Shown in pieces: positions 37,781-63,263 of a stretch of 64,000 nucleotides of DNA. A program made the position numbers and the translations under genes. Each line of letters opens with the position of its first letter. Positions within the stretch are counted from its first letter, which is position 1. Below the pieces are notes generated by a model, which was not told the origin of the DNA, made no database searches, and was given only the letters and a program-made list of their open reading frames with translations. Origin of the DNA: Macrolepiota albuminosa (Eukaryota > Basidiomycota > Agaricomycetes > Agaricales > Agaricaceae). The stretch covers positions 1,325,270-1,389,269 of the forward strand of contig JAMWFC010000058.1 in assembly GCA_027475525.1 (NCBI GenBank). The letters are read 5' to 3'.

Positions 37781-40154
37781 ATGGTGAGCCATTGAACTCT
37801 GTGTTTGAGGCAAGTGCTCATGTGTAGAAAAGCTGATTCGGGTAAGATCCAAGGACGGTAACTTCAAGTTCGATTTAAAGCCTACCGCTGACGTATCCGA
37901 GTTGTTCGCCAAGGTATTTTATCTCCTTCCAAGGATCCGGAATTTATGAAGCTGAATCATTCTGCACATAGATTCTTGAGACTACGTCAGATGCTGATCT
38001 TTCGAGCTGCACTATCTCAAATCGACCGCGCGGACATGAAGTCAAGTTCTCACAATTGAAAGGTAGAACCCTAAAGAATATTGGACTCAAGTGAGCTCGA
38101 TGGTGGCATTTACGTGTCAGTCTCACTGATAAACTCTACAGCCACGGAGATCTTGTTTTTGTGGGATACCAATCTAAACAGTCGTCCTCCGTGGCCAATG
38201 ATGTTGTCTCAGGAACACAACAGAATTCAAAGATCGACGCCACGAAACGGCCATGGGAGCTTGTAAACGAAGATCCCGTCGATAGTTACTGGCGTGGTCA
38301 GACTGGAATGTTACCTCGCGGACGCGATGCGCAATTCTGCAAGCACGGTGCCAAAGGCATGTGTGATTATTGTATGCCTCTGGAACCATACGACCTTGGG
38401 TATCACAAAGAAAACAACATTAAACATCTTTCCTACCATGCGTATCTTCGCAAGATCGCCCCCAAGACATCCTCTACATCCTCGTCCCTTCCTCCATTGA
38501 CCCCCTTCTCCTATAAAGTCAAAATCCCCTGTCCGACTGGAGGGCATGCACCGTGGCCAGGAGGGATCTGCACTGCATGTCAGCCATCTGCGATCACACT
38601 CGCGTCGCAACCATTCAGAATGGTTGATCATCTTGAAATCGCGTCCACGGATATCATTGAGCGTTTTCTCCAAGCGTGGCGCACCACCGGCCTTCAACGC
38701 TTTGGATGGCTCATTGGACATTATGAGCCGTATGACAAGGTTCCGATGGGCGTAAAAGCTGTGGTGGAAGCCATTCATGAACCACCGCAAGAGGGAGAGC
38801 TGGATGGGCTGACGCTCGGACTACCCTGGGAGGACGAAACGCGTATACGAGAGCTAGCTAAATCCGCTTCGACCCCTTTGACTATTGTGGGCTACATTTT
38901 CACCGACCTAGATCCAACGCCGGAAGACCGGTCCAAGAATGTGTACAAGCGACACCCAGGGTCGTTTTATCTTTCGTCAGTGGAGGCTATCTTCGCTGCA
39001 ACTGTGCAGAAGGCCAATCCCATTTTGTCGCGGTCGTCATCCACGGGACATTTTGCCTCTCGACTTGTTACTGCCGTTTTGACTGCAACAGAAGATGGCC
39101 ATGTTGATGTCTCTGCATATCAGGTATCTGAGCAAGCTGTCGCCATGGTAGAGGCAGATATGATTGAGGCCAGCGTCGACCCAGGTATTGTTCGAGTGAA
39201 GGAGGAAGATCGAAGTCAGGAGACGGCGCGATATGTTCCTGACGTTTTCTTTACCTATAAGAACGAGTATGGGCTTGAAGTCAAGAAGAGCGCGAAACCT
39301 TGTTTTCCCGTAGAGTATCTCATGGTGAACGTACGCCGCATTCTCATTACTTGTGTCCCTGAATCTGATCTCGCATCGATAGGTAACCCATGGCTTTCCT
39401 CAAAACCCGTCGCCCATATTCAAATCTACTCGGTTTAAAATCGAGAATCGTCCTGGTCTGGAAGATCAAAGTGTTGAACAAACCCGTCGCCCATATTCAA
39501 ATCTACTCGGTTTAAAATCGAGAATCGTCCTGGTCTGGAAGATCAAAGTGTTGAACAGTCCTTTCTGCTCTCCTTGGCCTAGATGCACCCGATATTCTCG
39601 AAAGCCGCTTTGCTAAAGCGGGTGAATTTCACAAGAAGAAGGAACTGGCGATTTACTTGAGCGACTGGCATCTGGTAGCCTTCCTTGGCTCCAGCCAGCT
39701 ATTCTCACCGGTATGCATCCTTTATCAATGCTGTTAGCGAATTCAGTGACTCAGAAAGTCGATTTTTAGGAGGATATGAAGGTGTTGATGCAGACTGTGT
39801 CACGGCAGGATCTTGTAGAAGAACCGTCTGCGCTCGATGCCCTTCTCGTTACAGAAGGATGGCAAACGCTAATGACTTTTACACGAGAAAGTGCTCGTAC
39901 GTCGATTATGACCTTTGCTCTGGCCTTTTGTTGACTTGTCCTATACAGCAGCGCGTCCGTCGTCTTCTGCACCTGCACGTCCGTCATCCCAAATGGATGA
40001 AGACATACCACAGGAGGTATTCGACCAGATCGCGGCCCAGGAGGCTGGCTATGGACATGCGGCCGGTTCTTCTTTCAGAGTCTGCCCTCATTGTACGTTC
40101 GCAAACGAGCACAATCGCATGGATTGCGATGTTTGTGGGCTGCCTCTACAGTGA
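37781..40154 (+). CDS. NPL4: NPL4, Cdc48/p97 cofactor; broken in this assembly by a 77-bp duplication
   Basis: Exon 1 is the ATG alone (37781-37783). Then follow 37833-37913, 37972-38090, 38142-39330, an exon from 39383, and two more ending at TGA 40152-40154. The N-terminal ubiquitin-like fold starts MLIRVRSKDGNFKF. The zinc/MPN-like core has QFCKHGAKGMCDYCMPLEPY, CPTGGHAPWPGGICTACQPS and FGWLIGHYEPYDKVPMGVKA. The C-terminal NZF finger reads CPHCTFANEH...CDVCGLPL. In exon 5 a perfect 77-bp repeat (39404-39480 / 39481-39557) breaks the frame. Collapsing it to one copy still leaves the downstream LLGLDAPDILESRFAKAGEF one base out of frame. With Ufd1, Npl4 delivers ubiquitinated clients to Cdc48. 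I infer an intact gene in the organism. Confidence 0.9.
39404..39557. repeat. Perfect 77-bp tandem duplication inside NPL4
   Basis: Copies 39404-39480 and 39481-39557 are identical. It is one of five unrelated duplications with exactly this period in the window, so most likely an assembly join. Confidence 0.97.
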
Positions 40155-41019
40155 TGCTTGAGAGTTTCTTGTAATTTCCTTATTGACATAATATAATGAT
40201 ATTGCTTGCATTGGGTAACAACGTTGGGATTACCGGAACAGTCAATTTGTATACGACGTCCACACTTCCACATCCGCTGATGTGTGCGTTGCAGTTGTTT
40301 GGGATACCCATCGAGAAAGCGTTCGAGAAAGCGAGGGTCTGATGTCCAACAGGACGATAATTTGAGAGCCTCCGTGGGAGTGAAAAGTCGAGAAAGCGTT
40401 CGAGAAAGCGAGGGTCTGATGTCCAACAGGACGATAATTTGAGAGCCTCCGTGGGAGTGAAAAGTGCCTCTTGTGCCAAATGGCTCAAGCAGCTTGAGTG
40501 TTCTGCTACGGCATTTATCTATCCATTCAAAAACTGCACGCAATCAGGCATGGGACCGCGCCATGGGCTCAATACCAATTCACTTTACAGCTTCTATTTC
40601 ACAGGCCCAAAACGCCCCATTTATCGTGTTCTCTAATCTAATGTCACCAATCTCATCATTCCACGATATCTCTCATTCACATATTATACAGATTGGTACG
40701 AAGGCGAAGAAGGCAAATCATGTCATTATCATAACGTCATCATCTCCTGCGTGAGTATTTAACCATTTATGCGACATAGGGAACTGCCTCAATATGGATT
40801 GAGAACGAGGAGATCGCGTAAGAAGGAAACTGTTGGGGAAAAAAGAATAGAAAAATACGCCTGGAAAAAGAAAAAATCCTAAAGGTACAGTCATGGATGA
40901 AAACAGTGTCTGTTGGCTGACTCGCGCTGTTGCGTGTTGCGATTGAAACCGCGAATTGATTGAAAAGAAATGGAGTTTGCACGGTACGAAAGCGACAAAT
41001 GAAAGCTGACCAAGCGGAT
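40155..41019. other. Convergent intergenic region between NPL4 and the Nudix gene
   Basis: It contains the 77-bp duplication at 40312-40465. A 151-codon minus frame (40088-40543) overlaps the NPL4 end antisense and is stretched by the duplication; I see no family in it. No gene is called. Confidence 0.45.
40312..40465. repeat. Perfect 77-bp tandem duplication, intergenic
   Basis: Copies 40312-40388 and 40389-40465 are identical, with period 77 as at four other unrelated sites. Confidence 0.97.
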
Positions 41020-42548
41020 CTACCGGCTGAATAACCACCAAAGTGCGAAACCAACACCGCACAGGATGCCGAGTGCGCGTGCGACGATCACAACAACTAG
41101 AGCCTTGCGAATGGCGGCGTAAAAGTTGCTGAGGGCCGATCCAGACCAGTTAATTCTAGGTAAAGGAAATCAGGCTTCATATTCAGATCACATGGCATAT
41201 TTCATACCGTCTGTCGTTTGTTCCTCCTGACCGAACACTTGCTTCCCAACCACGCACGACCGCCCGATACCGCTTGCCAAAGACCCTACACCACAGATCA
41301 ATGAACGGACGGTCAAAGGTACAAAAAAAGACCTACCATATCCAAAAGTTGACGTCAGGGTAGGAGAAACGGGGGAAGACGCTTGCGAGGCTTGGAGCAA
41401 CGATATCCACACGGAAAGTCTCAAATTCGGCCGGATACGGCAGTTGCATCGATCCCAACAGCGGGGAGGATACTGTCGAATCAGCATCCTCTGGATTGCT
41501 GAGTTGTGGAATTGGGGAGGGGAAGACCATGTACGACATCAAATCAAGTGTCATGCCGAGAGATAGACCCCATAGTTTGAGACTCTGAGGCCGAGCCAGG
41601 ACGCCTTTTTCAAGAGTGCTTTGAGACTTCATGTCGGCGAGAGGGGTGGATGAGCTAGTGTCAAGGACGATGGCAGGAAATTCCATTGTACCAATTAACA
41701 GACGAATGAGGAGTCGCAGGGCAGTGTTGTGTTTAGGTGCGAGACGAGAAGCAGCATCGACAGTGACTGTGGACCAACGAGGCGGAGTCGAGGGTGAAAC
41801 AAGAGATGCAAGGGGCGTCCAATGAAGAGATGTGGAGTCGATGGGATCTGGTGGTGGAGCATTGGGAGTAACCTGGAGGAAAACAAAGGGCGAAAGGATC
41901 ATGAGGAGGCGTTTGCCGAGAGATGTGGTGATTTCGCGGTCGTCGAGCTGTCCGATGCAGGTGTATTGGCGCTCGGCGAGGTCGATGCCTATCTCCTCCC
42001 ATGTTTGACGCATGGCTACTCCGCAGATCAATAAAAAAGAAGGGACCGAGTAACTGATTGCGCACCAGTGTAGAGTCCACCCTCGTCGTCGGGTTCGGTC
42101 CTTCCACCGGGAAACGCGACATGGGATTCCTGAGTGCTACGAATACGTGATTGAGCTAGTGAAACCTCATCTGCAGATGCATTGTGGCGATGAAGGAAGA
42201 GGATCTCGGGTCGTGCATTGGGGTCGTTGACCCATTCTTGCTCAAAGAATTCAGAGAGAGTAGGTGGTGTTGCAGGGGAAGAGGGTGCAGGTGCGGAATG
42301 AGACGGAACAACACGGATGATAAGGGCGACAGAGGCCCTTCGAGGCTCTAGATAAGATGAGAGAACGTCAGGAAGGGCATTGAGCTGAGAAGAGGTACGG
42401 ACGTGTTGGAGGAGAGGCAATGACCCGGGGGGGAGTGGATCGGATGCGGTGGAGAGCTCTGGAAAGCAAAGGGATGATTGACGCAGGTTTTTCTGTGGCG
42501 CAAGTGAGCAAACAAGACAGAATTAGCAGGAAACGGACCTTGCGCCAT
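41020..42548 (-). CDS. Nudix hydrolase with C-terminal membrane anchor, 431 aa
   Basis: Exons 42548-42539, 42458-42066, 42015-41337, 41285-41208 and 41155-41020 (432 codons with stop). The Nudix box is FPGGRTEPDDEGGLYT / AMRQTWEEIGIDL, split by intron 2. Its usual REUXEEXGU reads RQTWEEIGI, with Gln in place of the first Glu, while both metal-binding Glu remain. After the fold (QLDDREITTSLGKRLLMILS) come long low-conservation linkers, then a C-terminal hydrophobic helix (ALVVVIVARALGILCGVGFA) before LWWLFSR. The length and the anchor resemble coenzyme A/nucleotide-diphosphate Nudix proteins of fungi; substrate not predictable. The first exon is only 10 nt. Confidence 0.85.
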
Positions 42549-42654
42549 CGTAGTTGCACGCGAGCATCTGCGCCCCAAACTTTTCTTCTGACGTAGCTTC
42601 GGCCGTTTCCGCATCCCCAAAAGGCAGATCGCCCACGCCCAAAAAAGCCACACA

Positions 42655-42733
42655 GGCACTGCCAGGGTTCGAACCTGGGTTACGGGAATCTTCATTTCAA
42701 AACCCCGAGTGATGACCACTACACTACAGCGCC
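42655..42733 (-). tRNA. tRNA-Gln (UUG) with a short intron
   Basis: Minus-strand transcript from 42733. Acceptor GGCGCTG pairs with CAGTGCC (one G-U). The D-arm is GTGTAGTGGTCATCAC, the anticodon stem CGGGG/TCCCG, the loop TTTTGA with anticodon TTG, and the T-arm CCAGG TTCGAAC CCTGG. An 8-nt insertion (AATGAAGA) follows position 37, where nuclear tRNA introns lie. The discriminator would be T (42654), as in yeast tRNA-Gln. It lies in the leader region of the Nudix gene, just 12 bp after the stop of the tricalbin-like fragment. Confidence 0.9.
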
Positions 42734-42745
42734 ACATGACTACGT

Positions 42746-43670
42746 TTACGCCGACGCCACCACGTCCCACGATGCGCTCATCCTCAGGTCGCCACTCGTG
42801 CACCCGCTCAATGGCCACCACTCATTGCCATTAGCCAGGTCGTCCAGCCCCAGGGACAGTTCACCAACGACCCCTTCCTGATCATCTATAATCCTCACTA
42901 CAATCACGCATTTGGCCAGACTCTGACAATAAAAGGCACATGTGGCTTCCCATGCAGGATTTGTTCCGCGTATTCGGCGTGTCGCATGTACGACTTCACC
43001 ATCATACCCGAGGCTTACTTGCGCCACCGTACGCAGGCTGTCTGCGGTTGATCCGCGCAGGGCCAGCCGCCGTGCTTCCGAAATATGCAAAGTGACTATC
43101 CCCGGGACTGATGTCAATGTCAGTCCGTGAATCGCGCATCTAGCATGCATCTCACCGTAGTCGGAAATGTGACTATCCCCGGGACTGATGTCAATGTCAG
43201 TCCGTGAATCGCGCATCTAGCATGCATCTCACCGTAGTCGGAAATGTTACTCGCTTCCATATCAATTGGATAATACGTCAACTGACCAGCAAGTCTCCTC
43301 GCTGTTTCTCGTCTTTACGTAAAGGCAAGTTGTATCCCCCATGGGCCGTGTCCTCTTTTAAATGCGATAATTTAAACTGTGCTTCTCCGAGCAACCCATG
43401 TCGTCGGTATTCGTGATGGTCAAACAACCGCAGGTTCAGTACTCCGGTTAATGTGTATATCACTATGTACTTTGTTTCCATCCACGTCGGTTCGAAACTA
43501 AGTCGTCAAGATCGTCGAGTCTTTTTCCGGGTTACAAAGTATGTACATACTCATGGCACAAATGCTTCGTTCTGGCAATTTCTGCTGCACCGTCGATATG
43601 GATGCTCACAAAGGGATCAGGAGCACTTCCTAGAAACCTACTCCAAGGTATTATGTGTCCGGATTGAATA
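42746..43670 (-). pseudogene. Truncated tricalbin-like gene: last two C2 domains only
   Basis: Minus-strand exons read DPFVSIHIDGAAEIARTKHL, then EPTWMETKYIVIYTLTGVLN, HGLLGEAQFKLSHLKED and LVSLTYYPIDMEASNISDY, then PGIVTLHISEARRLALRGS to NEWWPLSGCTSGDLRMSAS, ending DVVASA. These align by eye with consecutive C2 domains of the full-length tricalbin at 47135-52539 (for example DPYITLSINERAELARTK) but with many differences. This is a diverged paralogue, not a fresh copy. No start, membrane or SMP part is present upstream; MTQ2 begins at 43834 on the other strand. The copy also contains a 77-bp duplication. It may be a real remnant or a truncation caused by a misjoin. Confidence 0.65.
43094..43247. 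repeat. Perfect 77-bp tandem duplication in the tricalbin-like fragment
   Basis: Copies 43094-43170 and 43171-43247 are identical. It covers the splice junction between ISDY and PGIVTLH. With one copy removed the exon phases agree. Confidence 0.97.
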
Positions 43671-43833
43671 GTCAGGCAAAGCACGCCGATTGGGCTCATA
43701 TACTACGATTTGATCTCGAACTGAAATCGTAGCAGTATCGATGTGAGTAGAGCAAAGGAGCGATAGTATCTTGTCCACGATAAGAGAAACCACCCATTGT
43801 CCGTCGGAGATAAGATAAGATTCTCTTTCACTT

Positions 43834-44806
43834 ATGATACCTACGCCAGATCTATCTCATTTGGCCGCAAAAGATTACGAACATGTCTATGAGCCCGCAG
43901 AAGACACATTCCTTCTCCTTGACGCGTTAGAAGAGGACGAAAAGGAACTCAAGGACCTGCATCCCAGCATATCACTTGAAATCGGGTCAGCTGCATCAAA
44001 CATCTATCATTCAAAAACTTCTCTAAAGGTGGCTCTGCAGTTCAGGATCAGGCTGCGTTTCCGCATTCGCAGGAAAAATCCTTGGGCCATCTGTACGTGC
44101 GTTGCTCGACTCTTAAACCTCCTGCACGCTTGGTATCAACACACCTCCAGTATACCTTTGCACCGACATAAATCCACACGCATGCACATGTACACGTGCG
44201 ACTGGGACTCAAAACAAAGTTTGTCGACTATATCGTTTCGATTACGAGCCTGAGATATATGAATCTTATAGGTGGTGCTGGACTCCATAAACGCGAGTTT
44301 CGCCTCGCCGCTATTCACGCGACTCAAACACGCAGTAGACATCATATTATTCAACCCACCCTACGTCCCTACAATCCCAGAAGAGATGACTGCCGCGCAA
44401 GATAGTTGCAGCATCTCAGGTTCTTGGGCGGGAGGTACGAATGGCATGAACGTGACTGACATATTTCTCGAACATGTCGAGGTAACACTCAGTTTACCCT
44501 AGTTTCTGAAAGCCTGTTTGTTGAAACGCTCTGTCTATCTATGAACAAGAAACTGATGTCGGAGCGGGGCCGTTTTTACCTTGTTGCTGTGGCAGAGAAC
44601 AATGTGCCTGGCATTCAGGAACATATGTTAAGATTGTATGGGCTGCGAAGCGATGTGAGTATTTTATCTTGAGATCTGCTGTCCTGCCTTCTGATACAGA
44701 ATAGATTGTGTTAAGCCGTAGGGCAGGACGCGAGCACCTATTTGTGATAAGGTTCCTTCGTCGGATGCAAGAGATTAGTATCAACACTGCCCCCCAAGAA
44801 CAATGA
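43834..44806 (+). CDS. MTQ2: MTQ2, eRF1 glutamine methyltransferase catalytic subunit, 230 aa
   Basis: Exons 43834-43985, 44041-44096, 44151-44218, 44272-44481, 44550-44654 and 44705-44806 (231 codons with stop). The N-terminus contains YEPAEDTFLLLDALE, motif I is LEIGSGSGCVSAF once the first intron is removed, and STDINPHACT-like CTDINPHACTCT follows. The HemK-type catalytic NPPY motif is in DIILFNPPYVPTIPEE, and WAGGTNGMNV and RRAGREHLFVIRF close the fold. The enzyme, with Trm112 as partner, methylates the Gln of the GGQ loop of release factor eRF1. No defect is seen. Confidence 0.93.
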
Positions 44807-44914
44807 CCACTTCGCCATTCCCAGTAGCAACAATCAGGCAGTACAGAGCGATGGATTAACGGAGTCAACAGCGTATCAAATGGTAGGGGCTACATACACC
44901 GCTATTTGCGAAGG

Positions 44915-46893
44915 TCATGTCATACCTCCACTCGTTCTCCTTTCTATGAATCCACGAATATTCGCATGCCCTTCTATGCGGCCAAAGAAACACCGTTTGC
45001 TTGCGTTCTCCCATAAAACAACATCAAGCTCTTTTGCATAACCGAGCACTAATTCATAGTCTGCCAGAGATGTGAAGGATGTATAAAGGTAGCCTATCAT
45101 CAGAAGTTCGTCAATTATGTCCATTGCCCGAATAATAATAGTGTTGGACCTTCTGAAGACTTGAGTCGGTTTCTTTCAAGCTCCCAAAGTCGGATCTGAT
45201 CTTGGACCGTTACTGGTAGTAAAGGATTCTGGGAAGCGTCATGAGTATTTGGACTACTAATTAAAGAGATAGCTGACATTTTTTCGCATCTGGGGATGGG
45301 CATGAGTCATGAGATAGCTAATGATCTATTGAACAAGTCATTGTCTGTGCATTTATGGAATAGAAAAACCTTACCTGGTCTGCTGTTATCCCATTATTGA
45401 GGGCCTTCTTCACACTATCACGAGTGATGGAACCAACTACGAGATTTGGAAAGCGGTATTTCAGTGAAACAAAAAGATTTAGCACGGCAGTTCGCAAAGG
45501 ATTGTCTAAAAGCACGTCAAAACACATATGATACAACAGGTTTTAAATGTACCAGTATAAGCATATATCCGATAGTTCGTTTCCAGAACAATGAATCCAT
45601 CTTGAGCTCCTGCACCTGTTCCTGTCGCCGTAGGCAGTGGGGGAGACGACGACGTCAATGTAGTCGACAATCGTGTCGGACTAAATCGTTTGGACGATGG
45701 CTAGATGATGATCAATTTCCGGGATCATACTATGAATGGCATAATTCACCCTTCGCTGCCATATGAGACCGTAGTCACGCAAATCTTCTAACATCGCGTT
45801 TTGACTAATGCCTAGTTTTTCAGTGGAGTACTCCTTGTTCACTAGGTATCGGAAGATGTAAATTACATCAATTGACCAGACTGACCCTGCCAAGCTGCAT
45901 TGTAGACAGCATGAATAGAAAATTTAGAACTTCAACAAGATCCATTTGTCGTTGCTGGAAAGTGTGATGGTCAGAGCACAAACCGATTTCAAAGTGGTGG
46001 AAAAACCTCAGCCATGTCTAGATATTGGAGTAAGAGGGCCCAAAGCTGGTCACGTGGAGAGTGAAGGAGGAACTGGAAGCCAATGGACGTAATTTGCAGA
46101 GGTGATCCACTGAAAAGGTATTGGACAATGGTCAGAATGTCGAAAAGCGGACTCACCGATGGCTAACCATCAGTCCGCTTCTTTGAAGCAGATATAGAAC
46201 ACCCGTGGATGGCTTGGGTGGATTCTGTCCTGTTCCAGATGACACCATGTAATGGAGGATCGTCTAGCTTGCACATAAGCCGATGTTGGCAGATTGGTTT
46301 AAAATGATAAGACTCACCTCCCACCTCTCCAATGCATACCCATCCAGTCCTTCAACGTCAAGTGGTGCGCGTTTGTCGTCTGGCTCTGCCGGAACTCCAA
46401 AGCTTCCACTCGTGCCGCTATACCCCGTTTGAGCAATCTCGTCTTCTAAAGTACCGGCTAGACCTTACCTTCCTGTAATGGCTTGCCGAAAGCTTGTCTT
46501 GAACGTCGGATTTAGTGCGAGTTTGACTAATGAATTCGGTACTATATGTAGTTTGTTAAGGTTGCTGAGTGAGTCGTCGTACAACCTAATTGGCAGAATC
46601 ATGAGGCCGTCCAGCGCGAACACCATAGAAGCACACATCTAACGCAACTGTTTTCCTTCCCGAACAACCCATGCTGACATTGTCGAAGCAGGTATGGCAG
46701 ACTCAAGCCAGAGCAAGTTCATCACGATTTGTCTTTCTAGGGGCGCCAGAAGACGGTAGATAGCGAGACATGAAGAAGGGAATTGATAGAGGCGAGTGAG
46801 TGTATTTTGCGATTGCAGCTGCAGAAATGGTACGAGAGGGTGCGAAGCCGACGAGTTAGAATCTATTTCATGCTCCCCACGCCGGGAGGACAT
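44915..46893 (-). CDS. TFB2: TFB2 (p52), TFIIH core subunit
   Basis: Several exons on the minus strand. The N-terminal exon (46893 downward) contains [20 protein letters not shown] and [20 protein letters not shown], the start of Tfb2. Middle exons give [20 protein letters not shown] and [20 protein letters not shown]. The end reads [37 protein letters not shown] and [17 protein letters not shown], canonical for the Tfb2/p52 C-terminal dimerisation domain with Tfb5. The stop is at 44915-44917. Tfb2 anchors and stimulates the XPB helicase in transcription and nucleotide excision repair. I did not resolve every junction in 45900-46640. Confidence 0.88.
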
Positions 46894-47134: not shown

Positions 47135-50100
47135 TCACTCGGCATCAGTGACAGTTCGGCGAGACCGTCCTCCTATGCTGAACCGTGAGGGTGAATGTGT
47201 TATGGACGGAGCCCTAGGCGGACGTTCGTCCGATGAAATTGACGCACCACTTCCACTCGGACGCAGAGTAGAATCATACTCCAGACGTAGCCGTAAAAGG
47301 CCGCCTTGGCGAAGTTCAAGGGATACCTCTGCTGCGGAATTTCCACGAGGCTGTATGTGGCGCCAGATCTGTGACAGTTAATTAATGCCACGTCCAACAA
47401 GATAAAAGGGCAGGAACACCAACATCGACTTCACCGTCGCCAAGATCCTTGTCTTTACCAATAGTTTTGTGCTCGTGTATCCATACATAGAGCTTGGCCG
47501 TATGTTGTCCGGCACTGAAATTGAACGACTCGTTCCTATGAAACTAAATTGAGAAGCTACCATAAGCTAGATAATTGCTCGCTTACCATTCTGGACTAGC
47601 CGTTTTCGCAACGTACTTTGTCTTTACCTCCTTATCACCAACGCGTAGGACAGCATATGGCTTCGTTTCGCCGCCGGACAAGTCTTTAGCATTTAGAACG
47701 GTGACTCTGAGAGTTCCAGGCTCAGAAGATCCGTTGATTTCTGAGCCGGTAGCTCCAACAGGCAATGCTGTGGGGTGGCTCGTTGCACCTACAGGCTGTG
47801 AAGCCTGGCCAGAGGGGAGGTCGCTCGTTGCCAAGTGCTCCTCCGACTCCCGGGGCGCGTGCTTGAAAAGACCCGTGACACCGTGGAAAACCCCTTTCCC
47901 AGCAGATATTCCAGCGGTAACGGGCAACGCACCGATCTGTGTCACAGCCCTTCCTGCGGTTGAAAAAGTCGATGTGTTCTTTCTGGTCTTCGCAATGATT
48001 GAAGGGCGGAAATTCATTCGGATGCGGACATGGCCTTTCTCCCCATGTTTCGATTCTTTCTGGTCTTCGCAATGATTGAAGGGCGGAAATTCATTCGGAT
48101 GCGGACATGGCCTTTCTCCCCATGTTTCGACGAAAAAGATTCAAAGTACGTTCAACAGCCTGGAATGGCTCAACGTCCTCGAGGTTTATCTGCGCGGTGC
48201 CCAAAGTATCTGATGAGCCCATCTGATCCCAGTCGAATACCTCTATTTCAAAGTCTGATCCGACCCGAGATGACTGCCATACATTACATCTTGTGGAAAC
48301 AGAAAAGAAACAACGCAGAGACACACCACTTCGACGTCAAATGTTTCATTCCACTCGGGACTGAGTGTTTTCTTCTTGACTTGAGATTTATATACCTTGT
48401 CACCATTTAGTGAGAAAACAGCGTAAGGATCGGATTTTCCTGGGTTGTTCACTATCAGAAGGATACTGCTAGCCAATGTAGAACACTTTACCTCCTCTAT
48501 CAGCGGCATGGAGCTTCTGAGCGTCAACTAGCTCCACATGAAGTATTCCTTGGTCTTAAAATCGAACAATCAACAAACAAATCATGCATAACTCCATGGA
48601 GCTACTGAGAGGTACGCACTCATGAAAGATTCACGAGGTTCAAGTTTGACTGGAACCGGGACATATCGCGTTTCAACTTTGACGGTCGAGACGTTGTCAT
48701 CGGTGTCATTGACTAGCGTAAATGTATGCACTGCATTCTACGGCAGAGATGAGCCATGTTACAACGGACATAGTTGTCCAAAAACATACCAGCGTTGATC
48801 GCAAGAAAGCCTTCGCGTCTCCCTTCCATTCAGCGACAATGTCATCCCGGTCTCCTTCATCAGCGACGTTCAATCGTAGCCACACTCGGTTGAAGTCAAT
48901 CTCCTTGATAAACCCTTCACCAGTAAAATCCCATTGAGCATGAGTGCTTCGCGCTTTCGTTGTAGAGAAACATGGCCAGTATCCGTCGTTGAGAAGGACT
49001 TCCAAACGAGCTTTTTTTGCGATGTTTCCAGACACGATATTGAAAACGATGATACCAGATTCTATGCAAAATATGAGACAACAAGCAAGGGACCCCAACT
49101 TATGACTACGCACGTTGCATAAGAAGTTCATCTACGGTCATGTCAACACCCTTTGGCTGCTGTTCCTCCTTTGGAGCAGCATCCTGCTCTGTGTTACTTG
49201 CCTCGGGTGTGGGAGATGAGCTCCGGGGAGACGAGTTCACAGGTGAAGGGGTAGCAGCAGCGGGCGGATTTAAAGAGGGAGTGGATGGCTTGATGGTGAG
49301 GGGAACAGGAGCGCTATGATTTGATGACGATATTGACGCGGTCTCATTTACCATCTTAGTGGTAGTATCGGTAGTATCTCGCTTGTCAAAGCTAACACCA
49401 TTGAGTGCCAAAGCTGGAATGAACGTGGCACGATAATGAAGTACCCCTTTGTAGGCATTCCCTGGTAGTCGAATAGGATCAGAAGCCACCTTGAGGCCAG
49501 TGGACTCAAACGGATATCGATAATCTTGGGATTGTTTTGCTAGGTCGTTAACATGGAGATCGACCGTGCCAAGGGAGCGATCCTGCGGTAAGTGAGGACT
49601 AGAGTACGCGGGAAATGTAATTACCCACTTTCGTTAAATTCTGGTAGTCCATGACCTCCAATAGAAGATTCTGATGGTCAATGTCAAGCTGAAAGTTTCT
49701 TGCGTTAATTAACTGTCACCCACCTGACGCATGCTATGAACTACAAGACCGTTAGAATAAGGGCTTAACAAGTAGGGAACAAAGCAAAGCATACCAGGGA
49801 TGTATACAATCTCGTTCCAGACAGGACTGAGATCTATAGGTCATTAGTATTATTAGTCACGACAAGAGAAAAAGCACCATACTATTATTGATTACTTCCG
49901 TTCGTGCCTTTACTTCATTATTAACCAAGACTCGTACATAGGGGTCGCTCTAGAGGCGTGGTTTTAAGGTTTTAATTATGAGCAGTGTGAAAGGACGTAA
50001 AGACTTCATACCTTGCCACCCAAAGTAGCTTCGACATTCCTATACAGGGATCAGTCAAAAAAGGCCTGGCATAAGTGCCAAAACGATGACTCACTTAACG

Positions 50101-52539
50101 TCAGTAGCCTTGTCCAACGACAGCCTGACGACTCCAATCGGCGGGGTATACTGCTCCGCACCATGCAAGCTACCTGCCATACTCAGCGGTTTCCATTCTG
50201 CAGATACCCTGATTTTTCCAGTCCGACAACCGCTCAAAGGGAACCAATCTCTGCCTGCTTCGCCCATTGAGGCAAGCAAGTCTGTGAGCTTAATAGACAT
50301 GTAACCGATCACGGGGTCTTTCAAGAAATCGCGGTCATCAATGACCTTGATAGTTACGACGGAGGACGCTTTATCTGCACACAAAAATTCATGAGCTGAT
50401 TCCCAGACGGGGCTGTTAGTATGCTTGAAAGCCGGGGTAATGTATGCGGGCTTCCTGGAATCACCCAAGAAGACTTTGGCCATAGGGTTCAGATCACCCG
50501 AGAGAGATTTCGAAGCGTCCAAATCCTTCGCCTGATGCAAAGTAAGACGGACGATACCAGCCGCTAATGAGAAAACAAGAATATAAATTGTCTCTCGACA
50601 AAAGAATGAAACCGATCTTACAAGTTTCAGGTAATTCTTTTCCCTCTTCTGCCTCTAGGACAGGATAGTACGAGATATCATATCTGAGTTCACCACGATC
50701 TTTACCATCCTTGAGAATAAGTGAATGGATGTCCTCCTGAGTAGCGTCTTCGAGAAGCTTAGACAGTTCAAAGCTGGTGGAACCCATGAGGGAATCTTTG
50801 CGATGATCGTTGTAATCCCACAGAGTGAGGACTAGCGATTCCTGGAGTGAATTGACGAGGACAAATTTAGTCTCGTTCCATGTTGGGTTGAACCTGCAGG
50901 AGAAGGTGAGAAACATGAAGTGAAGAAAGAATGGGACGTACGTGTTATTTTGATATTTAGTGCGAGCCAATTCAGCGCGTTCATTAATGCTCAAAGTAAT
51001 GTAAGGATCCGGAGTTCCACCACCAATCTTTGTTCCTTTAATGCCACGCGCAGCACGGACGGTAACCTGGACAACGCCAACTGCAGTGTCTAACGGTTTG
51101 CCAGAGAGCATTTGCTCAAGGTTGAGCGTGAAAACATTAGGGTCATACATCATTGGACCAAGAATGCCATGTGTCATGTCGCGAATAAACGAAGACAGTC
51201 CAGGAATCTGCGTACATGTATGAAATCGTTTCCTGTAAGAACTACGGATCGGCTTACACTGGCAATATCAAATCCAAATGTTTCTCCACCGATTGGTTTG
51301 AGGACATAATCTATAACGGGCTTCTCCAAGAAACAAACGTCCACGACCTGGACGTGAGGAAAATTCGACATCAATTTCATCCGAATCCGCATCAAACCAC
51401 TGAATGTTATATCCTCAACAAGAATGGGCATAGAGGCGGTTGCAAACCCTTTTCCTAGGCGAACAGACAGGACAACCTTGGGATTGACTTTGTTCGCAAG
51501 TTGACGAGGCGTGAGGTCCTCAACATCGTTCGGAGTGAATGAAATGCCCCAGTCCATCATAATAATATCATCTGCAGTTTTTGGGAAAGTCCTGACTTTG
51601 TCGATGCGGGGAGCTTTCGTGCCAAGGGTGAAGGTCGTTAAGCGAAGAGAATCCAAGAACGCAGGAGTGTTGGTACTAAGGATTTGATCGGCAGTTCCAA
51701 CAATTGTGGCAGAAAGCACAGGCTCATATATCAGCCAAAAGCGGTCGAGGAAGTTGTTGATCCATTCAGCGGATTCGTGTTCTGAAGCCAAGCGTATCTT
51801 GACTAATTCTCGCTGGATGTCGTCACGCGATCGGCGCCTAACACGCGCCATTGATGTAGAGTAATAGGTGCTGCAAAACGCCAAGATAATGAACAACCAA
51901 CCCCACCCAAAGTTGAATCGAGTAAGAAAATGGGTAGCAAATACAGCCTTCTGGATATCAGAAAGGGATGCCACAACCACCACGAAGACTCACGAAAACG
52001 ATGATAGCAGCGTTATGAAACCAGTCACCATAGTACTGCTCCTTGAGAAATAGGTCTAAAACACCCTTGTCTTTTTCCTCTCCTGAGATATTGTCGTCCA
52101 CTTCAACCATTTGATGCCAACCCACACGGTACCAATCGGGAATAGTGGAAGCGGTTGGCGTCGAATATCCGCCCGGAACGGAATCTTCTTCCTGTTGGAC
52201 AAGCTCTGCTGACTGGTCAGTTCCAGAGGCAACCGTTTTACTGCCCTCATCTGTGTCCTGGACGGTAATTGTGGGTATGACAGTAGGCGGACCATCCTGT
52301 AATGGCAAAGCTGGACAATGTGATTAAGTACTATGGTAACCAACTAAGAATCTCAACAAACCTTGCGCTCCTAGTCCCCCTTGATCTGCAGCGACACTTT
52401 TAAGTTGGTCAAGACCTTGGCTTGCTGCTGCCCCTTTTTCCTCGGGCGAGGCTGAAGGGTCGAATATATGTACAGGAACGCCTGCATCTGCGTCTCGCTT
52501 GAGGATGCCATTAACTTCAGCCTGGCCGACGGAAGTCAT
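47135..52539 (-). CDS. Tricalbin (extended synaptotagmin), SMP plus multiple C2 domains; broken here by a 77-bp duplication
   Basis: Start MTSVGQAEVNG at 52539, stop at 47135-47137, many short introns. In order: an acidic cytosolic leader; a membrane hairpin (GWGWLFIILAFCSTYYS); the SMP lipid-transfer domain (ESAEWINNFLDRFWLIYEPV ... FPHVQVVDVCFLEKP ... GLSSFIRDMTHGILGPMM); then C2 domains starting at GVVQVTVRAARG, GIVRLTLHQAKDLD, GVVRLSLDKATDVK, GILHVELVDAQKLHA and GTLRVTVLNAKDLSG. A Ser/Pro linker lies between the third and fourth. The C-terminus is Ser/Arg-rich. Tricalbins tether ER to plasma membrane and move lipids. A 77-bp repeat (47977-48130) splits the exon before KHGEKGHVRIRMNFRPSIIA, and one copy alone still leaves a one-base offset. 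I infer an intact gene in the organism. Confidence 0.9.
47977..48130. repeat. Perfect 77-bp tandem duplication inside tricalbin
   Basis: Copies 47977-48053 and 48054-48130 are identical. It disrupts the coding frame between the fourth and fifth C2 domains. Confidence 0.97.
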
Positions 52540-53142
52540 GGTGGAGGGAGGAAGAGCGCGTGAACGGGGGGCGAACTTGAATTTACGGGGGTATATGAAT
52601 TTTGGGACCAATCTTGATGTCACCAGGTTGCCTCAATTATTGATGTTTGTTACGTCAAATCCGGTGCTTTGGTCGTTATTCGCGTTCCTGAGCAGCGGTA
52701 CGACGAGAGAAGTAATGTATTCCTCTAGACTACCTGCTTCTATTAAGTCTAGGGAGAGGGGACACGATATCAGCCGCGAAAGTTTCTCCATTTAAGGCTG
52801 AAACTGGGTCGAAACTTGGTCGAATCGTTTGTCTTAGTTTGATTTATAACCGATCTGTCATCAGCAAAGTATTTCTGGACACATACACAATCCTCGTGGC
52901 TGCAGAAGCGGCCATTTCTATAGTAAGTATAGGGGCATCCGATAGAAGTGGCTGTTTATGCTGCTTGCGATCAGCGATTAGGCTCCGCTGTTCAAGCTCA
53001 GCAGAGGAAGGCACAACGCGTCTCAACCGCGCGTAGTATGTGCATATTTGGCCCTGTCGGCAAGCACATGACACGGCTCCGAAGATGCTGCATCTCGAAG
53101 GTCTACAAGAGCATCCCACTTAGTGCGTCGTTCCACTAGGTG
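52540..53142. other. Divergent promoter region between tricalbin and UGO1
   Basis: About 600 bp between two divergent starts. A 91-codon minus frame (52844-53119) has no recognisable features. It should contain both promoters. Confidence 0.5.
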
Positions 53143-54698
53143 ATGAGCGAGCCATCATCGCTGCGTGATCTCTACATTGACACCTCATCGACGTGGGCGT
53201 TCGTACCGCCTGCAATTCCTCAAACAGCGGCTTCCGAACCTCTTTCGTCTGGCGCTTCCTACCAATGGTCGAATAGGCCGTCACATAATCCAATTTTCGA
53301 CCTCTCGCCGTCTCTAGACCTCGACGAGGTATCTGGTATAAATGTCGCGAACTCATTGAAAGCACTGGCTGCATCCGCAGTGCTACAGTATTCAAGTACC
53401 GCAATTGCTATGCCTTGGGAAGTTGGAAAACTCCTGCTTCAGGTACAATGGGTTCCTCGAGACGCTGGAGAACTGGAGGAGCCTGAAGTAGTCGATGACA
53501 ATGATGACCTGGTACTAGCTCACCTCAAAATTCGTAATATCGACTGACCCTTAACCGTAGCTCAGCGACTCCTCAGAAGATGATTCCTACTTTGCTGACC
53601 CCCAAGCTGGACCCGCCCGTCGTCCTGTTCCTCGGCCGACAGATGAACAGGTTTTCACCATGCGTAGGTCCGTGTTGGAAGAGGGGACGCGACCAGAATA
53701 CATCATCCCGGTAGGAAGTGCCAATGGTGTATGGGCTATGATGAAACGAATAGGAAGCTTCCGCAGTGAGGGTTACCTGGCTTTATGGAAAGGCATGTAC
53801 AGCTATACTGGTAATCTCATTAGCCCTTTTGAATGACGTTAATCTATCAGGCCTATTGACGTCTTGCATTACGGAAATTCTTTCATCGACTTCGCAGCCT
53901 CTCATTCATAACTTTTTGCAATCCCTCTTCTTCCCATCCATGTCCCCCTTTCACCGACCTCCACTCATTCTTCCTGTTGCATCACATCTCATCACCGGTT
54001 TTTTACTGTCTCCTCTAGATCTTGTTCGCACACGTCTCATTGTTCAATCACATACATCCCGCTATCGAACATATACAGGACCTGTAGACGCTCTTTCTCA
54101 AATCTTGCGCGATGAAGGCGGCCTGAAAGGCATTTACTTTCATCCTCATCTCTTCATACCGACAATCATCGACAACGCTCTCCGTCCCATCGTATCTCTT
54201 GCATTTCCATCCATTCTCGCAGGATATCTCGGTATGCAGATATCAGAAGAGACGAACCCTTGGGCCTGGGCCTGTATGGAACTCGGTGGAAGCTGTCTCG
54301 GACTGCTCATCACCCTTCCCTTCGAAACCATCAGAAGAAGGTTACAAGTACAAGTACGAGGCACAGCCAAGCCCTTGAAAGGTTGCGTGGAGCTGCGGCC
54401 AGCACCATACAATGGCATTGTAGATGCATTCTGGCATATTTTGACAGAAGAGCGGTCCGACCTGCCTATTAAGCGACGAATAAGGAAGCGTAGAGCTAGT
54501 CAGGCAAGTCTCAAGGGAAAGGAGTGGGCTGTGTCAAATGACAATGTCGATGTTGACGAGGGTGAAAGCTGGTTCAGGCATAGCGGTATAGGCCAGCTTT
54601 ATCGTGGATTAGGAATGAGATTGGGCGCTAGCGCTATCGTTTTCTGTCTGGCTTTCTTGACTGTAGAAGAAGGTGATGGCGGATGGGCGGAGATTTGA
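53143..54698 (+). CDS. UGO1: Ugo1-like mitochondrial outer-membrane carrier-family protein, 482 aa
   Basis: Exons 53143-53511, 53561-53792 and 53851-54698 (483 codons with stop). The start is MSEPSSLRDLYIDTSSTWAF. A central acidic linker (SDSSEDDSYFADPQ) is followed by GSANGVWAMMKRIGSFRSEG and LALWKGLLTSCITEIL. Mitochondrial-carrier-like repeats follow: ITGFLLSPLDLVRTRLIVQS (the PxDxxRxR signature) and GLLITLPFETIRRRLQVQVR. The C-terminus is SGIGQLYRGLGMRLGASAIV. This degenerate-carrier architecture is that of Ugo1, which links Fzo1 and Mgm1 in mitochondrial fusion. The second intron uses a GC donor (gcatgt at 53793). The gene looks intact. Confidence 0.88.
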
Positions 54699-56783
54699 TG
54701 CAAGCAGGATTGGAATACATGTAAAATGCTTTTCATATACTTATATAGCTAATTGTGTATAATCGACGATCGGGGTATGTGGAAGGATTGATGTTGATAT
54801 TAACGGTCCTTCAGCCATCTACTAATCGATAGAAATGGAGACTCAAGGAGGAAGCATTTAATGTGCATGTATTAAACTTGGTTTGATGATAGCCTGCATT
54901 TGTGATTTCGCAGCTGTTTTTTTTTTGGTGGTTCTATGGGTTCCTAGACGTATCTACATGTGTTAGCTTCTAGGTACCAGAAAAGGAGGGGTCTTGTTTC
55001 ATATGCTTATTGAGTATCTACTTATGTCGGCCCACCTAAGGGAAATGCTGTTACGCACTGCGTGTGGGGCTCGGGATATCTTATCTCATCTGTTCCGCCC
55101 TGGTGGTCGGTCACCGGTCAGTACTGGTCAGTACCCATACCCACTAAAACCCTTATTGTCGATTTCCAGACCCTGTGTGGTCTCGCGTGTTCCTCTGTGA
55201 CCGCTGTCCACGTTTTGGTTATTAGTTTTTCATCTAGGGCTCTTTTTCCGTATCTCTTGCTGTCAGATGCTAGGCAAACCATCTTTATTCTTTTTGCGAT
55301 GGCATTGTGCCATTTGTTCGTGATTTCCTCTGTTGTAAGTATTCACTCAGGATCTACTTCTCTTCATACTATCATGTGTCACGATGTGCAAAGGGTCGCT
55401 ATGTGCAAAATACATTACTGAACTCGTTCTGCTCACCTGTTGGGTCTGGCAAAAAATCTGTAGATACCTAGAGTATATATCAAGACTTCCCTGTACTTTT
55501 TTTCAGACAAAATCAAGATGTAAAAATGTCAGAGGCATGAAAGTGTGAAATCAGAGCCAGTTTTGTCACTTACCGGAGCTCGGTCAAATGACTCAAGATG
55601 GAATATACAAAATCTGAGTATACAATGCTTTTCTATGCATAGAAATTGACTTAGAAACACCTTTCCTAAGCATACCGAGTGGCAGAAAGCGGTTATCTTT
55701 CTGTGCAATGAAAGAGAGCATGACAACTAAGGAGCCTTTGAAGCTCCGCATACGGCTTGCGATGAAATGGGGCGGAATTTGAATTTGGACTGTGACCCGG
55801 TGTGACGGATTTAGTCATTTGGTACCTCTCACTCGGTCATCAGCCGACACGACTTCTGCAACAATAAACCTCTCATAAAAATTATAAGCCTCTAGCCAAG
55901 AACTATCTTGAGATGTTCTGAAAGTTCCAAGGCCGTACGTGCGGAAGACAAGCCTACAGAAAAAGAATGGCTAGAATTTGCACTTCCCGGCATATGACAG
56001 TATCCGCTGATTGGACTTTCGCGATGAACGCCTTTCCTATTTTAGGAAACCTCTCTTTCTCTCTCACGCCACTTATTTGTTGTTCTTTATTTTTTTAATC
56101 TATCTAGAATAGGGAAACCCGCCACCCTCAGTTGACCACATTACACGGAGTCACTGAGGACTAAAACTCTGTTTTATCTACATCTGCCAATCGCATCTCA
56201 GCTTCCATATCAGCCTTGCTGACTCCGACATAATTATTCGGTACATCCGGCTACCTGCTTCTGTCGCTTTGCCATTTGCATGCTTGGGTCGTACTAGATT
56301 GCAGCCTAGGATGAGTCCTAGGCTCTTTTGCAGAGTCGCCTTGTGAGGGCCCAGATCTCTTCCTGACCTGACGCTTTCCATTGTGTCATTGTGTTCCATG
56401 TGTTCCATTGTGTCGCATATGTGGCACCTACCCCTCGTTTCGTAGTTCGGTATCTTCTCCCAATAGGCTCCGATCTTATATGCGTTTCAGTGATTTCGCA
56501 GCTGTTGGACACTGGAAACGTACTCCGTGGTGTAATATTATCATTGACTCCGATTTGAAACTTGATGTTTTAGATTTTTGGTTCACCCCTCTGAAGAAGA
56601 ATCACAGGGACCTCACTCAGCGACTGCGTAGGCGTTTAACACTACGTCAGCGCAGCGTCATCCTGGAGAATTTTTGCTGCTCAAGTGATCCTGCTTCGTA
56701 ATGCATTTTGGCGAAGAAGTGGCCCAGGCATTCGAGTAGGCTTTAATTCAAGACGTACTATGATTGATCAAATCCTCTAAAGC
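54699..56783. other. About 2.1 kb with no recognised gene
   Basis: Short frames on both strands (54994-55200, 55062-55421, 55529-55726, 56381-56701) have no family features. Small local repeats occur (gtcagtactg/gtcagtaccc near 55118-55138; gtgttccatgtgttccattg near 56390-56410). It ends at repeat A1 of the DIRS-like element. Probably decayed mobile-element and intergenic DNA. Confidence 0.4.
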
Positions 56784-56943
56784 AAGAGAGTTGGCCTTGT
56801 GATCCAGTGAGGAACAAAAGGGAGAACAGGGTGGGGTCTTTGCCTGACGTGATCGTGTGGTCACGAGATTCAACTCTTTTTCCTCTGTGACCACATCGTC
56901 GAGTCTCTTCGCCACGTTCGAGTTGAACTCGTCTCATAATTTA
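56784..56943 (+). repeat. Split direct repeat A1 of the DIRS-like element
   Basis: About 159 bp matching A2 (63264-63421). The three clear substitutions (aacaaaag/aacgaaag, cgtgtgg/cgcgtgg, gccacg/gccgcg) are all losses of a CpG in A1 that A2 keeps. Confidence 0.9.
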
Positions 56944-57006
56944 GTTTATCTCAGAGAATAAATCGTTTCATCAAATCGAGAAAGTTATCATTTCTGCAAA
57001 AAGAAG

Positions 57007-58667
57007 GTGCTATCTATGATCACTATTGTCGTTGACCCCAATTCAGAAGTGCCGCCGAACTTCATGCTGGATGAACACAAGTTCACCAGAGAGGCCATAA
57101 TGTACGATAGAGCAGGGATGTCTGATCAACGAGCTGCGGAGATCCTATTGGAAAGGTGGAACGAAGCATGGGAGCAGAGAAAAACCCAGTGGATAGAAGA
57201 GAGAGCTGAAAGAGAAGCGGCCTGAGCGGGTGGTCCCCAGCAGGAGAGACAAGAAGAGGGGGGGGGAGGAGTCAGACCCTGGAAGCCGAGTCCGTTCATG
57301 TGCGGCCATCTAGAGATGCTACTCCAGAGGAGGTCAAAGAAGGGCCGAAGTTGGTATCAGGGAAAGCCATCCCTGAGGTAGTGGACTATCCACCTGCACG
57401 ATTTGCGATCAAAAAATTAAGGGAACGAGACTATATCGAGCTGGGCTACTTCACGCCGGAAGCTCGAATGGAGGCATCCAAGACTGAATCGGTGTCATCT
57501 AACGATGTTTTTACCTTGACTCAGGAAGAGAGTATCTTGGCTTTAAAGCCAGCTTCAAATTTCCGAGCGAAAGCTAAAGTCGTGCAAGACGAAGATCTCA
57601 CCTGGGAGCAGCTGAGTGTTGCGTCTTTATGCTTCCTGGAACATATAATTCAGGAGAAATAGCCAAACAACATGATTGACGCGATGCACACCTTCTTCTT
57701 TAGACTGATGCACCACAAACTTCGTAATGAAGGTGAAGAAGGGAATAAAGTGCTCCTGATGTATCAGGCCAGAGCCAGACAAGAATGGCATCGGCAACTA
57801 AAGAACCCACCCAAGGATGGAATTTTCGACTTGGGGCTAATTGATGAAAGGTTTCTTTGGACGTTGAAGGACCAACTATACGACATAAAAAGGAAGACAC
57901 TCATGGCAGGTCAGTAAAGTCCTTGGTTGTAGTCAGGCAACTGCTAACATTCTTACGTCTTTTCCTTCTCTCACTCTGGCCTACCTAAAAATGGATGAAT
58001 ACGGATTTGAACGACGATTGCGGTATCCTCATGCAAACAACCTGAATGCTGATGACGACACTCTCGTCTGCATAAATGTGCGACATTCTTGCTTGCTAAT
58101 AACATCAATTTAACTGCATTGAAACATGAACGGCGACACTCTCGCCTGCGTTATACAAAAAAAAAAAATTGTACCTCACATGATCGGAATCACATTTCGT
58201 GGCCGATGGCATGTGTGGGGTTTGCGTATACAGAGTTAACGGCGCTGAAAGCCGATGCATTAGCGGCAGCCAGCCCCAATAAACAGAAGAGGAAGCGTTC
58301 CTCATCGCCAGAGCACAAGAGAGAGCAAGGCGATAGAGCGAAGAAGACCAGAGAGTTTTTTCCCATCCACGCAGGCACATCAACCGACAGGGTCAACTCC
58401 CCCAACGCTGCCTGCGCGGTCTGCCTTGGTCAACACACGCACGAGATCTGGAGCTGCACAGCTCAAACCATGTGGAATGGTCAAAGAACCTGGGTACGAA
58501 GGAACAGAAACAATCGCCTCATCAACCCAGAAGGGAGGGAGATATGTACGGATTGGCAGAAGCCCAGGAGATGCAGAATCTTGTCACACGATTACAAACA
58601 CGAGTGCTCTGGATGCGGAAAAAGAGATCATGGAGCTCAGAAGTGCCATCTGGCACAACCGCTTTAA
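57007..58667 (+). pseudogene. Gag-like region of the DIRS-like element, with zinc knuckles
   Basis: Consecutive frames 57007-57225, 57300-57662, 57672-57917 and 58089-58667 look like one capsid-type ORF interrupted by stops; the last three share a frame, with TAG at 57660-57662 between two. The last piece has a basic Lys/Arg-rich stretch and Cys/His motifs (CAVCLGQHTHEIWSC; CSGCGKRDHGAQKC) common to Agaricomycete DIRS Gag proteins. Not functional as it stands. Confidence 0.65.
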
Positions 58668-60627
58668 GTTTTCGTCCCCCTATAAGCCAGATCGTTGGCG
58701 AGAACAAATCCAGAGAGCTGGTATCGAGAATAGATTCCCTAACCTGGTGGACCAGCTGGTGCATGGTTTTGACGCAGGTATTCCAGAAGTTTTGCACACA
58801 GTTACTCCAGAAAACAAGAAGTCGATTGGGCAGCTTGAAGAGGAGTTCTGGAAGATTGCACAAGCAGAGTTCAATGCTGGGAGATACCTGGGTCCCTTCA
58901 CTTGAGAACAAGTGGAAAAAATCATTGGTCCTTTTCAATCTTCCCCAATGCATATCATCCCCAAACCGAACAAGCCAGGGAAATTTAGGCTCATTCAGAA
59001 CCTATCCTTTCCTCACTCTCCTACAGATGACGTGGCCTCAATTAATAGTAGGATCAACTCCGCAGATTTCCCGTGCACATGGGGCACTTTCGGAGTGGTT
59101 TTCTTACTCATTGCTAGGCTTCCACCAGGTTCCCAGGCAGCAGTGCGAGATGTCAAGGAAGCCTATAGAACAATCCTGATCAAGCCATCGCAGTGGCCAG
59201 GCATTGTGGTGCGGCTCCCTGGATCAGATGCCTTTGCAGTGGACACAATGGATTGTTTTGGTCTTGCATCAGGCTGTGGTTGCTATGGGATTGTTGGTGA
59301 TGCAGGCTCTCAGATTATTCGAGCCAATGGGATGGGACCATTATCTAAGTGGGTGGACGATCATATTTTCTTCAGAATCCGAAGAGAATTCTTGCCAATG
59401 TACAATAAGTCAAGAGAACGATGGGCAGAGGATATCAGAAAAGAAGGAGGAGAGAAGCAAGTGGGTGGTAGATGCTGGTTTCAAGGAGCAAAAAATTTCG
59501 ACGACTGTTTTGATGAATATGATGAAGACATGTTGGAGCCTATCAAAGATCTCGCACTCTCCTCTCCAAGAGCAGAAGAAGATCTCCCCTTCACTTACGC
59601 CATTCAAGACATCGATAACATCTCAGATGAGCTTGGCATCCCTTGGGAGCGAGGAAAAGACATTACCTTCAGAGAGGTGGTACCATATATCGGGTTTGAG
59701 TGGGATCTCAACAGGCGCCAAGTCAGCATCACAGCAGAAAAAAGACAAAAATACTTGCAAGCTATTACTGAGTGGAAAGACAAATGCACACACACTCTGG
59801 AAGAGACACAAAAACTGTACGGAAAGTTGCTCCATGTTTGCCTGGTCATCCCTGCAGGATGAGCTTTTTTCACCAACCTGGAAGCCCTCATGGGACTGTT
59901 TCATAACAGTCCATTCAAACCACGGACTCCTCCACGAAGGACACCAGAGGACCTGTCCTGGTGGAAGCGAATACTATCTAAGCCAGTGGTGAGACCAATT
60001 TTAAAACCTCAACCCATCCTCGACATTGAAGCCTACTCAGATGCTAGCTCAGCCATTGGGATCAGAATCACAATCGGACAAAAGTGGAGGGCATGGAAGT
60101 TGGTTCCTGGATGGAGAAAAGATGGGCGAGACATTGGCTGGGCTGAGGCAGTCAGATTCGCATTCTTGGTCAAAACAGTCATCCTCGAAAAAGAAAGAGG
60201 AAAACACTATAAAGTGTTTGGAGACAACAAAGGCGTTGTTGAAGGGTGGTGGGTTGGCCGAAGTAGAAATCGACAGATCAACAAGATCTTTAAAAGAGTG
60301 CAGAACCAATGCGAAGAGAACAGGATCTCAATACACACTAGATATGTTCCGAGCAAGCTTAACCCAGCTGATGGGCCATCAAGAGGTCAATACCCACCAG
60401 AAAGTCTCCTACTGCCCCCCTTTCCAATTCCGGGAGAACTTGAGAGATTGGTCATCAACTTTGACGAGCGAAACAGTCCTGCCGAAATCATCAGTGAGCG
60501 AGAGCATGAAGTACATGGAGAAGAGAATGATTCCCTTTCCAACCAAGCACAAAATCAACCTGAGAGTCCTGTTCAAAGCCCAATCTGGAAGCAGTGGTCC
60601 TTCGGAAAGCCTTGGCAAAGAGCGTAA
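58426..60627 (+). pseudogene. Reverse transcriptase plus RNase H of the DIRS-like element
   Basis: One frame crossed by two TGA codons (58903-58905 after YLGPFT, and 59860-59862 after LVIPAG). Both sit where an Arg CGA would continue the family sequence. RT motifs are FQSSPMHIIPKPNKPGKFRL, AVRDVKEAYRTILI, FGLASGCGCYGIV and the catalytic KWVDDHIFF. RNase H has DIEAYSDASSAIGI, GWAEAVRFAFLV, FGDNKGVVEGWW and YVPSKLNPADGPSRG. The order and motifs are those of DIRS elements. The 3' end overlaps the start of the recombinase frame, as is usual in the group. Confidence 0.85.
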
Positions 60628-61127
60628 GCAATTTTATGCGAGTACTATAGCGAGGACAGAATCGAAAATACCACGCAAACCAAAGCCCTACCCCAAAGGA
60701 TTGGAGCTTGAGGTGTCACCTCTGAGACCTCATGTGCTAGCTCGAGATCGATTACGCCTCTGGACACCTGCAAAGAAAAGACACAATGAGAGAGGGCGCA
60801 GCAGCAAGCCAACAACAACAGAAGAGGACGTGATGAAAGTCTTCGAAGTCTTGAATGAAGCCTGGGCTGAGACAACAAAAGAAACTTACGGGACTGGCTT
60901 GCTAATTTTCCATGCTTTCTGTGACTTTAGGCACATCCCCGAAAATGAAAGAGCACCAGTAACGCTGATGAGCTCCCATTATAGATGACCACAGATAGCG
61001 CCAACACAAGCATCTCACATTGGCACACTGGGACCACCAGGAGCGGCACGTCTTAGCGCTCCAGGGGCTAATTTTTGCATATTTTTATGTTAATAACTCG
61101 CAGCTGGAGCCTCTAATTACTCCAGGA

Positions 61128-61281
61128 CCACTCTTTATGGCACCATCTATTCTTAGCACTCCTCTTGACACCTTGCTGCACCTTGCCACTCACCCTTCAG
61201 GGCCCCACTCTTTATGGCACCATCTATTCTTAGCACTCCTCTTGACACCTTGCTGCACCTTGCCACTCACCCTTCAGGGCC
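61128..61281. repeat. Perfect 77-bp tandem duplication
   Basis: Copies 61128-61204 and 61205-61281 are identical, apart from the arbitrary cut point at the shared cc. Period 77, as at four other sites. Confidence 0.95.
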
Positions 61282-63194: not shown

Positions 63195-63263
63195 TATTAA
63201 TCAGTAAACAATACATGTCATATAAATTTACCCTCAACTCGGAAAACCTCGCGGCGAAGGCAA

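Follow-up and report, generated by a model that had tools for sequence, protein, structure and literature searches.

Fixed-length 77-bp tandem duplications in a Macrolepiota albuminosa genome assembly are most likely an artefact of assembly software

We analyzed a stretch of 64 kb (hereafter the window; C85:1325270-1389269, C85 being contig JAMWFC010000058.1) in the genome assembly of Macrolepiota albuminosa (GCA_027475525.1), which comprises 100,137,612 bases in 129 contigs. The plus strand of the window carries an Npl4 open reading frame (38095..39438) with the Pfam domains NPL4 and zf-NPL4. Its best three named matches are from Termitomyces, followed by other agarics, and Termitomyces sp. 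T32_za158 matches it with 93% identity over 89% of the query. On the minus strand lie a C2-domain (tricalbin-like) reading frame, with a tRNA-Lys gene (anticodon ttt, 42654-42733, minus strand) directly downstream of it, and a tricalbin gene with an exon reading frame at 47583..48140. The region from 58.0 to 63.0 kb is occupied by a repeated element, one stretch of which (60990-61420) occurs in at least 40 copies. The last open reading frame of this element gives a weak match to Pfam Phage_integrase (tyrosine recombinase; E 2e-4), below the cut-off, and its arrangement is one that we would associate with DIRS-type retroelements. The window also contains an array of 152-bp units on the plus strand (15136..19154).

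The first-pass annotation, made from the window alone, had reported five 77-bp segments that are each immediately repeated without mismatch. This is borne out by our analysis: the five pairs with period 77 are all exact at the positions given below, and Tandem Repeats Finder lists the same five in the window. We call such junctions seams. Seam 1 (39404..39557) is located inside the Npl4 gene, whose open reading frame enters it and is broken there. Seam 2 (40312..40465) lies downstream of Npl4, at a place to which no gene was assigned. Seam 3 (43094..43247) coincides with the C2-domain frame on the minus strand, which it shifts, and seam 4 (47977..48130) breaks the frame of the tricalbin gene, on the same strand. 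Seam 5 (61128..61281) belongs to the repeated element. The runs of equality at period 77 are 78, 78, 79, 77, and 77 bases long, respectively, as expected for a 77-base unit with chance matches at its edges. The chance of an exact 77-base repeat is 4^-77 per site, and no such repeat is expected in 64 kb. We searched the window for other complete or nearly complete exact two-copy tandem repeats with periods of 20 to 1,499 and found none.

To assess what the seams do to genes, we compared the translated units with homologous proteins, using the best 120 of 1,495, 701, and 270 hits and leaving out P0001, which is the window's own reading. The peptide encoded by the unit of seam 1, THGFPQNPSP..ENRPGLEDQSVEQVLS, occurs once in homologs (e.g., P0002). 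Copy 1 is in the frame of the homologs and the extra copy does not share the frame of the downstream sequence; the right edge of copy 2 is one base short of what the homologs need. Among the listed homologs P0002-P0120, the Npl4 unit peptide is found once in 81 of 119 and twice in none of the 119. The same holds for tricalbin: among the best 120 listed, the unit occurs once in 56 homologs of the full protein and once in 115 of the exon readings, and never twice in either set. Homologs without a match to the unit at the threshold used are presumably fragments or divergent sequences.

The tricalbin exon reading frame starts out of frame, within the extra copy of seam 4, and the corresponding segment is single in two Termitomyces homologs (P0121 and P0122). 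The closest comparison is provided by P0241, a tricalbin exon reading of 187 residues from a contig of 10,923 bases with the source label lgn. It is identical to the window over the 29 residues before and the 156 residues after seam 4 (185 of 187), and differs only at the seam itself, with two serines there and the unit present once. Since its contig has 10,923 bases and that of the window 1,393,254, P0241 probably comes from another assembly. Relative to this nearly identical exon, the window has one base fewer at seam 4, and codon reasoning would place the missing base 4-5 bases beyond the right edge of copy 2. At seam 3, judged by eye, the frame seems to pass through one unit with no base missing. 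The Npl4 frame and the two C2-domain frames are thus most likely broken in the assembly only on paper. As for a second haplotype that might serve for comparison, the regions of four of the window seams, seam 2 among them, gave no match in the genome other than to themselves.

Repeated elements allow the same comparison within the genome. Of 506 candidate copies of the element with seam 5, 40 were scored. In 37 of them the match comes in two halves, with the segment present once, and in all 37 exactly 77 bases of the query are missing between the halves. One of the remaining three is the window itself; the others, L026 and L027 (labels of this form denote the loci that we extracted), both have seams of their own nearby. 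For a second repeat, carrying a seam at L006:2506, we scored 40 of 680 candidates: 28 copies are split, each lacking exactly 77 bases, and 12 are unsplit, namely the query itself and 11 more. Of these 11, we looked at nine (L003 and L017-L024), each of which has its own 77-bp seam nearby; the one in L018 shows one mismatch between its copies. Taken together, the paralogs, the homologs, and the nearly identical exon P0241 indicate that the true genome would hold one copy of each duplicated segment.

To determine how far the fixed length extends beyond the window, we scanned a sample of 215,985 bases for adjacent two-copy repeats with at least 90% identity and periods of 25-399. The sample consists of the window, L002-L016, and L030, from six contigs (C85, C1, C5, C20, C100, and C114): in addition to the window, it includes 103,985 bases of the window's contig (L002-L012), 10 kb each of C1, C20, and C100, 10 kb of C5, and 8 kb of C114. 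These stretches are not a random draw, 167,985 of the 215,985 bases being from one contig. Among the 35 tandem loci found, 32 have a period of 77, a constant length that equals a k-mer size; 28 of these pairs are perfect and the other four have one to three mismatches. One further pair, in L022, has a period of 76. The three loci of the sample with other periods are a 61-bp array in L014, which appears in the scan at its multiples too, an 81-bp repeat in L030, and one of 36 bp in the window. The first-pass annotation had proposed a genome-wide count of tandem lengths as a check. Run on our sample, this count gives a spike at 77, and a broad spread of duplication lengths, which it had named as the outcome contradicting an artefact, was not seen there. 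We found no 77-bp seam in L007, L008, L011, L012, L013 (C1), and L030 (C114), so that the sampled stretches of two of the six contigs, C1 (10 kb) and C114 (8 kb), are free of them. The 61-bp array (L014:6005-7017) is exact, has about 16.6 copies, and has 77-bp seams no more than about 250 bases away on either side.

The 152-bp array of the window serves as an internal negative control. It has 26.5 copies, falls below 90% identity and hence outside the loci of the scan, and contains no seam; its longest repeated word is 73 bases and it has no repeated 77-mer. Most of its units have an apparent short intron, exon and intron having seemingly been multiplied together. By eye, the units look like what we take to be ankyrin repeats, e.g., QQSALHVAASNGHLDIVKVFIKHNAD.

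We then asked which bases adjoin the seams. Where three or more paralogous loci were available for a seam, we computed how frequently the base adjacent to the seam differs from the paralogs, and obtained the background from 20,000 resamplings of offsets within the same seams. The first base after copy 2 gives a mean difference of 0.53 over 16 seams, with values of 0.3 or more at 11 of them. The background has a mean of 0.066 and a maximum of 0.319, and none of the 20,000 resamplings reached 0.53. The base preceding copy 1 gives a mean of 0.081 for the 16 seams (P 0.36); two of them (L022:569 and L023:332) have values of at least 0.3. The right edges of L019:390 and L022:569 are variable by construction, because their copies are imperfect, and without them the signal is found in nine of 14. 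Five of the 16 seams show no paralog difference at the right-edge base: L003:6052, L003:9668, both seams of L026, and the one at 61128 in the window. The set is non-random: two repeat families account for 15 of the 16 seams, and most entered the set through their alignment over a known seam; the edge base played no part in this choice.

The right-edge signal is found in both orientations of the element relative to one reference copy (L019 and L023 against L006, L017, L020, L021, L022, and L024) and on seven contigs (C85, C45, C90, C107, C30, C26, and C1). Along the deposited strand, these repeats have a branch site at the first base after copy 2. Since the polarity follows the deposited strand, whatever the orientation of the element, it points to software working from left to right as the origin of the seams.

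A cell cannot see which strand was deposited, and the polarity therefore speaks against a cellular process. Real tandem duplications, made by a process with a fixed step of 77 bp, could account for the few pairs that differ at one to three positions, as old duplications do. However, they would have to have the same length at unrelated sites, whereas the broad length distribution expected of natural tandem duplication is absent from the sample. They would also have to break the frames of conserved genes, to spare the nearly identical exon P0241, which is single-copy on another contig, and to follow an arbitrary choice of strand. Given the fixed length, the single copy in paralogs and homologs, and the polarity, we rejected this explanation as hardly credible. 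That a cellular duplication of fixed 77-bp length should operate across this fungal genome with an edge preferring sites that vary between repeat copies borders on the inconceivable. An artefact arising in library preparation or sequencing, for instance from looped or chimeric molecules that overlap by a fixed length, is very unlikely. It could produce duplicated stretches in principle, and none of our results speaks for it, but neither a fixed length of 77 nor right edges at bases variable among paralogs would be expected from it, and a consensus over many molecules should, by reasoning, remove the duplication.

We conclude that the 77-bp duplications are most likely an artefact of assembly software and not biology. 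The length of 77 is also the largest default K of SPAdes at common read lengths, and the seams are probably overlaps of a de Bruijn graph with K=77 that were left unmerged during a directional, left-to-right stitching. In such a process, a graph step based on short reads would build each final contig by adding pieces rightwards. At a right-branching vertex on the path, the shared 77-mer would be written both when it closes the left piece and when it opens the next one, the genome itself holding one copy. The signal at the right edge fits this, as it implies that a K=77 graph would fork immediately after the repeated 77-mer. If every overlap had been left unmerged, left- and right-branching vertices would both be expected to give seams, but only two of the 16 left edges show a branch signal. 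The silence of the left edges hence requires a directional step, which would proceed from left to right and fail only at the forks ahead. Contigs of up to 6.5 Mb, together with the roughly 1 kb of exact 61-bp array, suggest that long reads were used too.

The first-pass annotation had read the duplications as contigs joined end to end without merging their K-base overlap. The technical origin and the duplication of an overlap of length K stand, given the spike at 77, the paralogs, the homologs, and P0241. Plain symmetric end-to-end joining is insufficient, since it leaves without explanation the left edges that lack a branch signal, the lost bases, and the imperfect pairs.

Several seams are irregular in this way. 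The right edge of L019:665 lacks one base relative to eight of nine paralogs, the ninth having its gap two bases away. L006:194 is one base short at this edge compared with its one paralog, and L022:569 is two bases short compared with several paralogs. Among the right-hand alignments of the two repeat families, three of 18 have a gap at most five bases from the edge, and that of L028 stops at the edge. In most repeat seams the right edge is gapless, which rules out a uniform loss of one base at all seams. In L019:390 and L022:569, copy 1 has the bases of the paralogs and copy 2 the variant. We also considered a rule by which copy 1 always ends in the majority allele. Judged by eye, it fits L017, L027, L006:2506, and L019:390 and fails for L020, L021, and L019:665.

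Base losses and imperfect pairs are not predicted by an exact overlap written twice, and they call for a later polishing or a k-mer-based correction. Together with the signal restricted to right edges, they leave either directional joining or k-mer-based correction as the source of the seams. In the latter case, a corrector or gap-filler with k=77 would have run from left to right over finished long-read contigs. At the first disagreement with the short-read k-mers it would have re-emitted the last matching 77-mer, leaving the error in place. Such a tool would account for the polarity on the deposited strand and for the loss of bases at the right edge or close to it in Npl4, tricalbin, L019:665, L006:194, and L022:569. 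It would also explain contigs of up to 6.5 Mb and the survival of the 61-bp array of more than 1 kb, which is beyond the reach of a K=77 graph by itself. On the other hand, most seams of the two repeat families have lost no base, the deletion in tricalbin would lie 4-5 bases off the edge and not at it, and the titles and abstracts that we searched name no tool behaving in this way. We regard a corrector of this kind as a close rival of the unmerged overlap, but as rather unlikely.

The preferred reading, an unmerged K=77 overlap, has parallels in other technical repeats. Circular contigs in short-read assemblies end in direct terminal repeats of length K, which are purely technical. These resemble the seams in being exact, technical, and of length K, but they are located at contig ends, whereas the 77-bp copies sit side by side inside long contigs. 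According to PMC7379835, neighbouring edges of the de Bruijn graph overlap by K in most assemblers, and those of SPAdes-type graphs have exactly K bases in common, as here. A correct path through such a graph contains the overlap once. In the seams it is present twice, only the right edge shows a branch signal, and a base is sometimes lost. False duplications in genome assemblies, such as those of PMC9516828, likewise show a single sequence twice and lead to false biological conclusions; the seams differ from them in being 77 bases long, in tandem, and of fixed length. Concerning Termitomyces, two publications mention a genome of 70 Mb in 64 fragments, assembled with CANU and polished with Pilon (PMC10021994), and genome work with SPAdes 3.13.0 (PMC8262964). 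At the level of titles and abstracts, we found no published account of an exact tandem artefact of length K, which is not a claim that none has been published.

The value of these results lies in quality control. At the density of the sample (32 per 215,985 bases), the genome would contain around 15,000 seams and more than 1 Mb of false sequence, a crude estimate that stems mostly from one contig. Such seams would affect gene models, the calling of frameshifts and pseudogenes, counts of duplications, and repeat statistics drawn from this assembly, and any gene model, frameshift, or duplication that is called at a seam needs to be inspected for a period of 77 bp. A spike in the periods of exact tandem repeats, combined with an edge polarity on the deposited strand, provides a screen that can be applied to other public assemblies without reads.

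The window has further exact repeats with different spacing. At its end (63069-64000), there is a direct repeat of 126 bases at a distance of 806 bases, and separate 31-base repeats are found at 20818-20912 and 26063-26157, each at a distance of exactly 64 bases.
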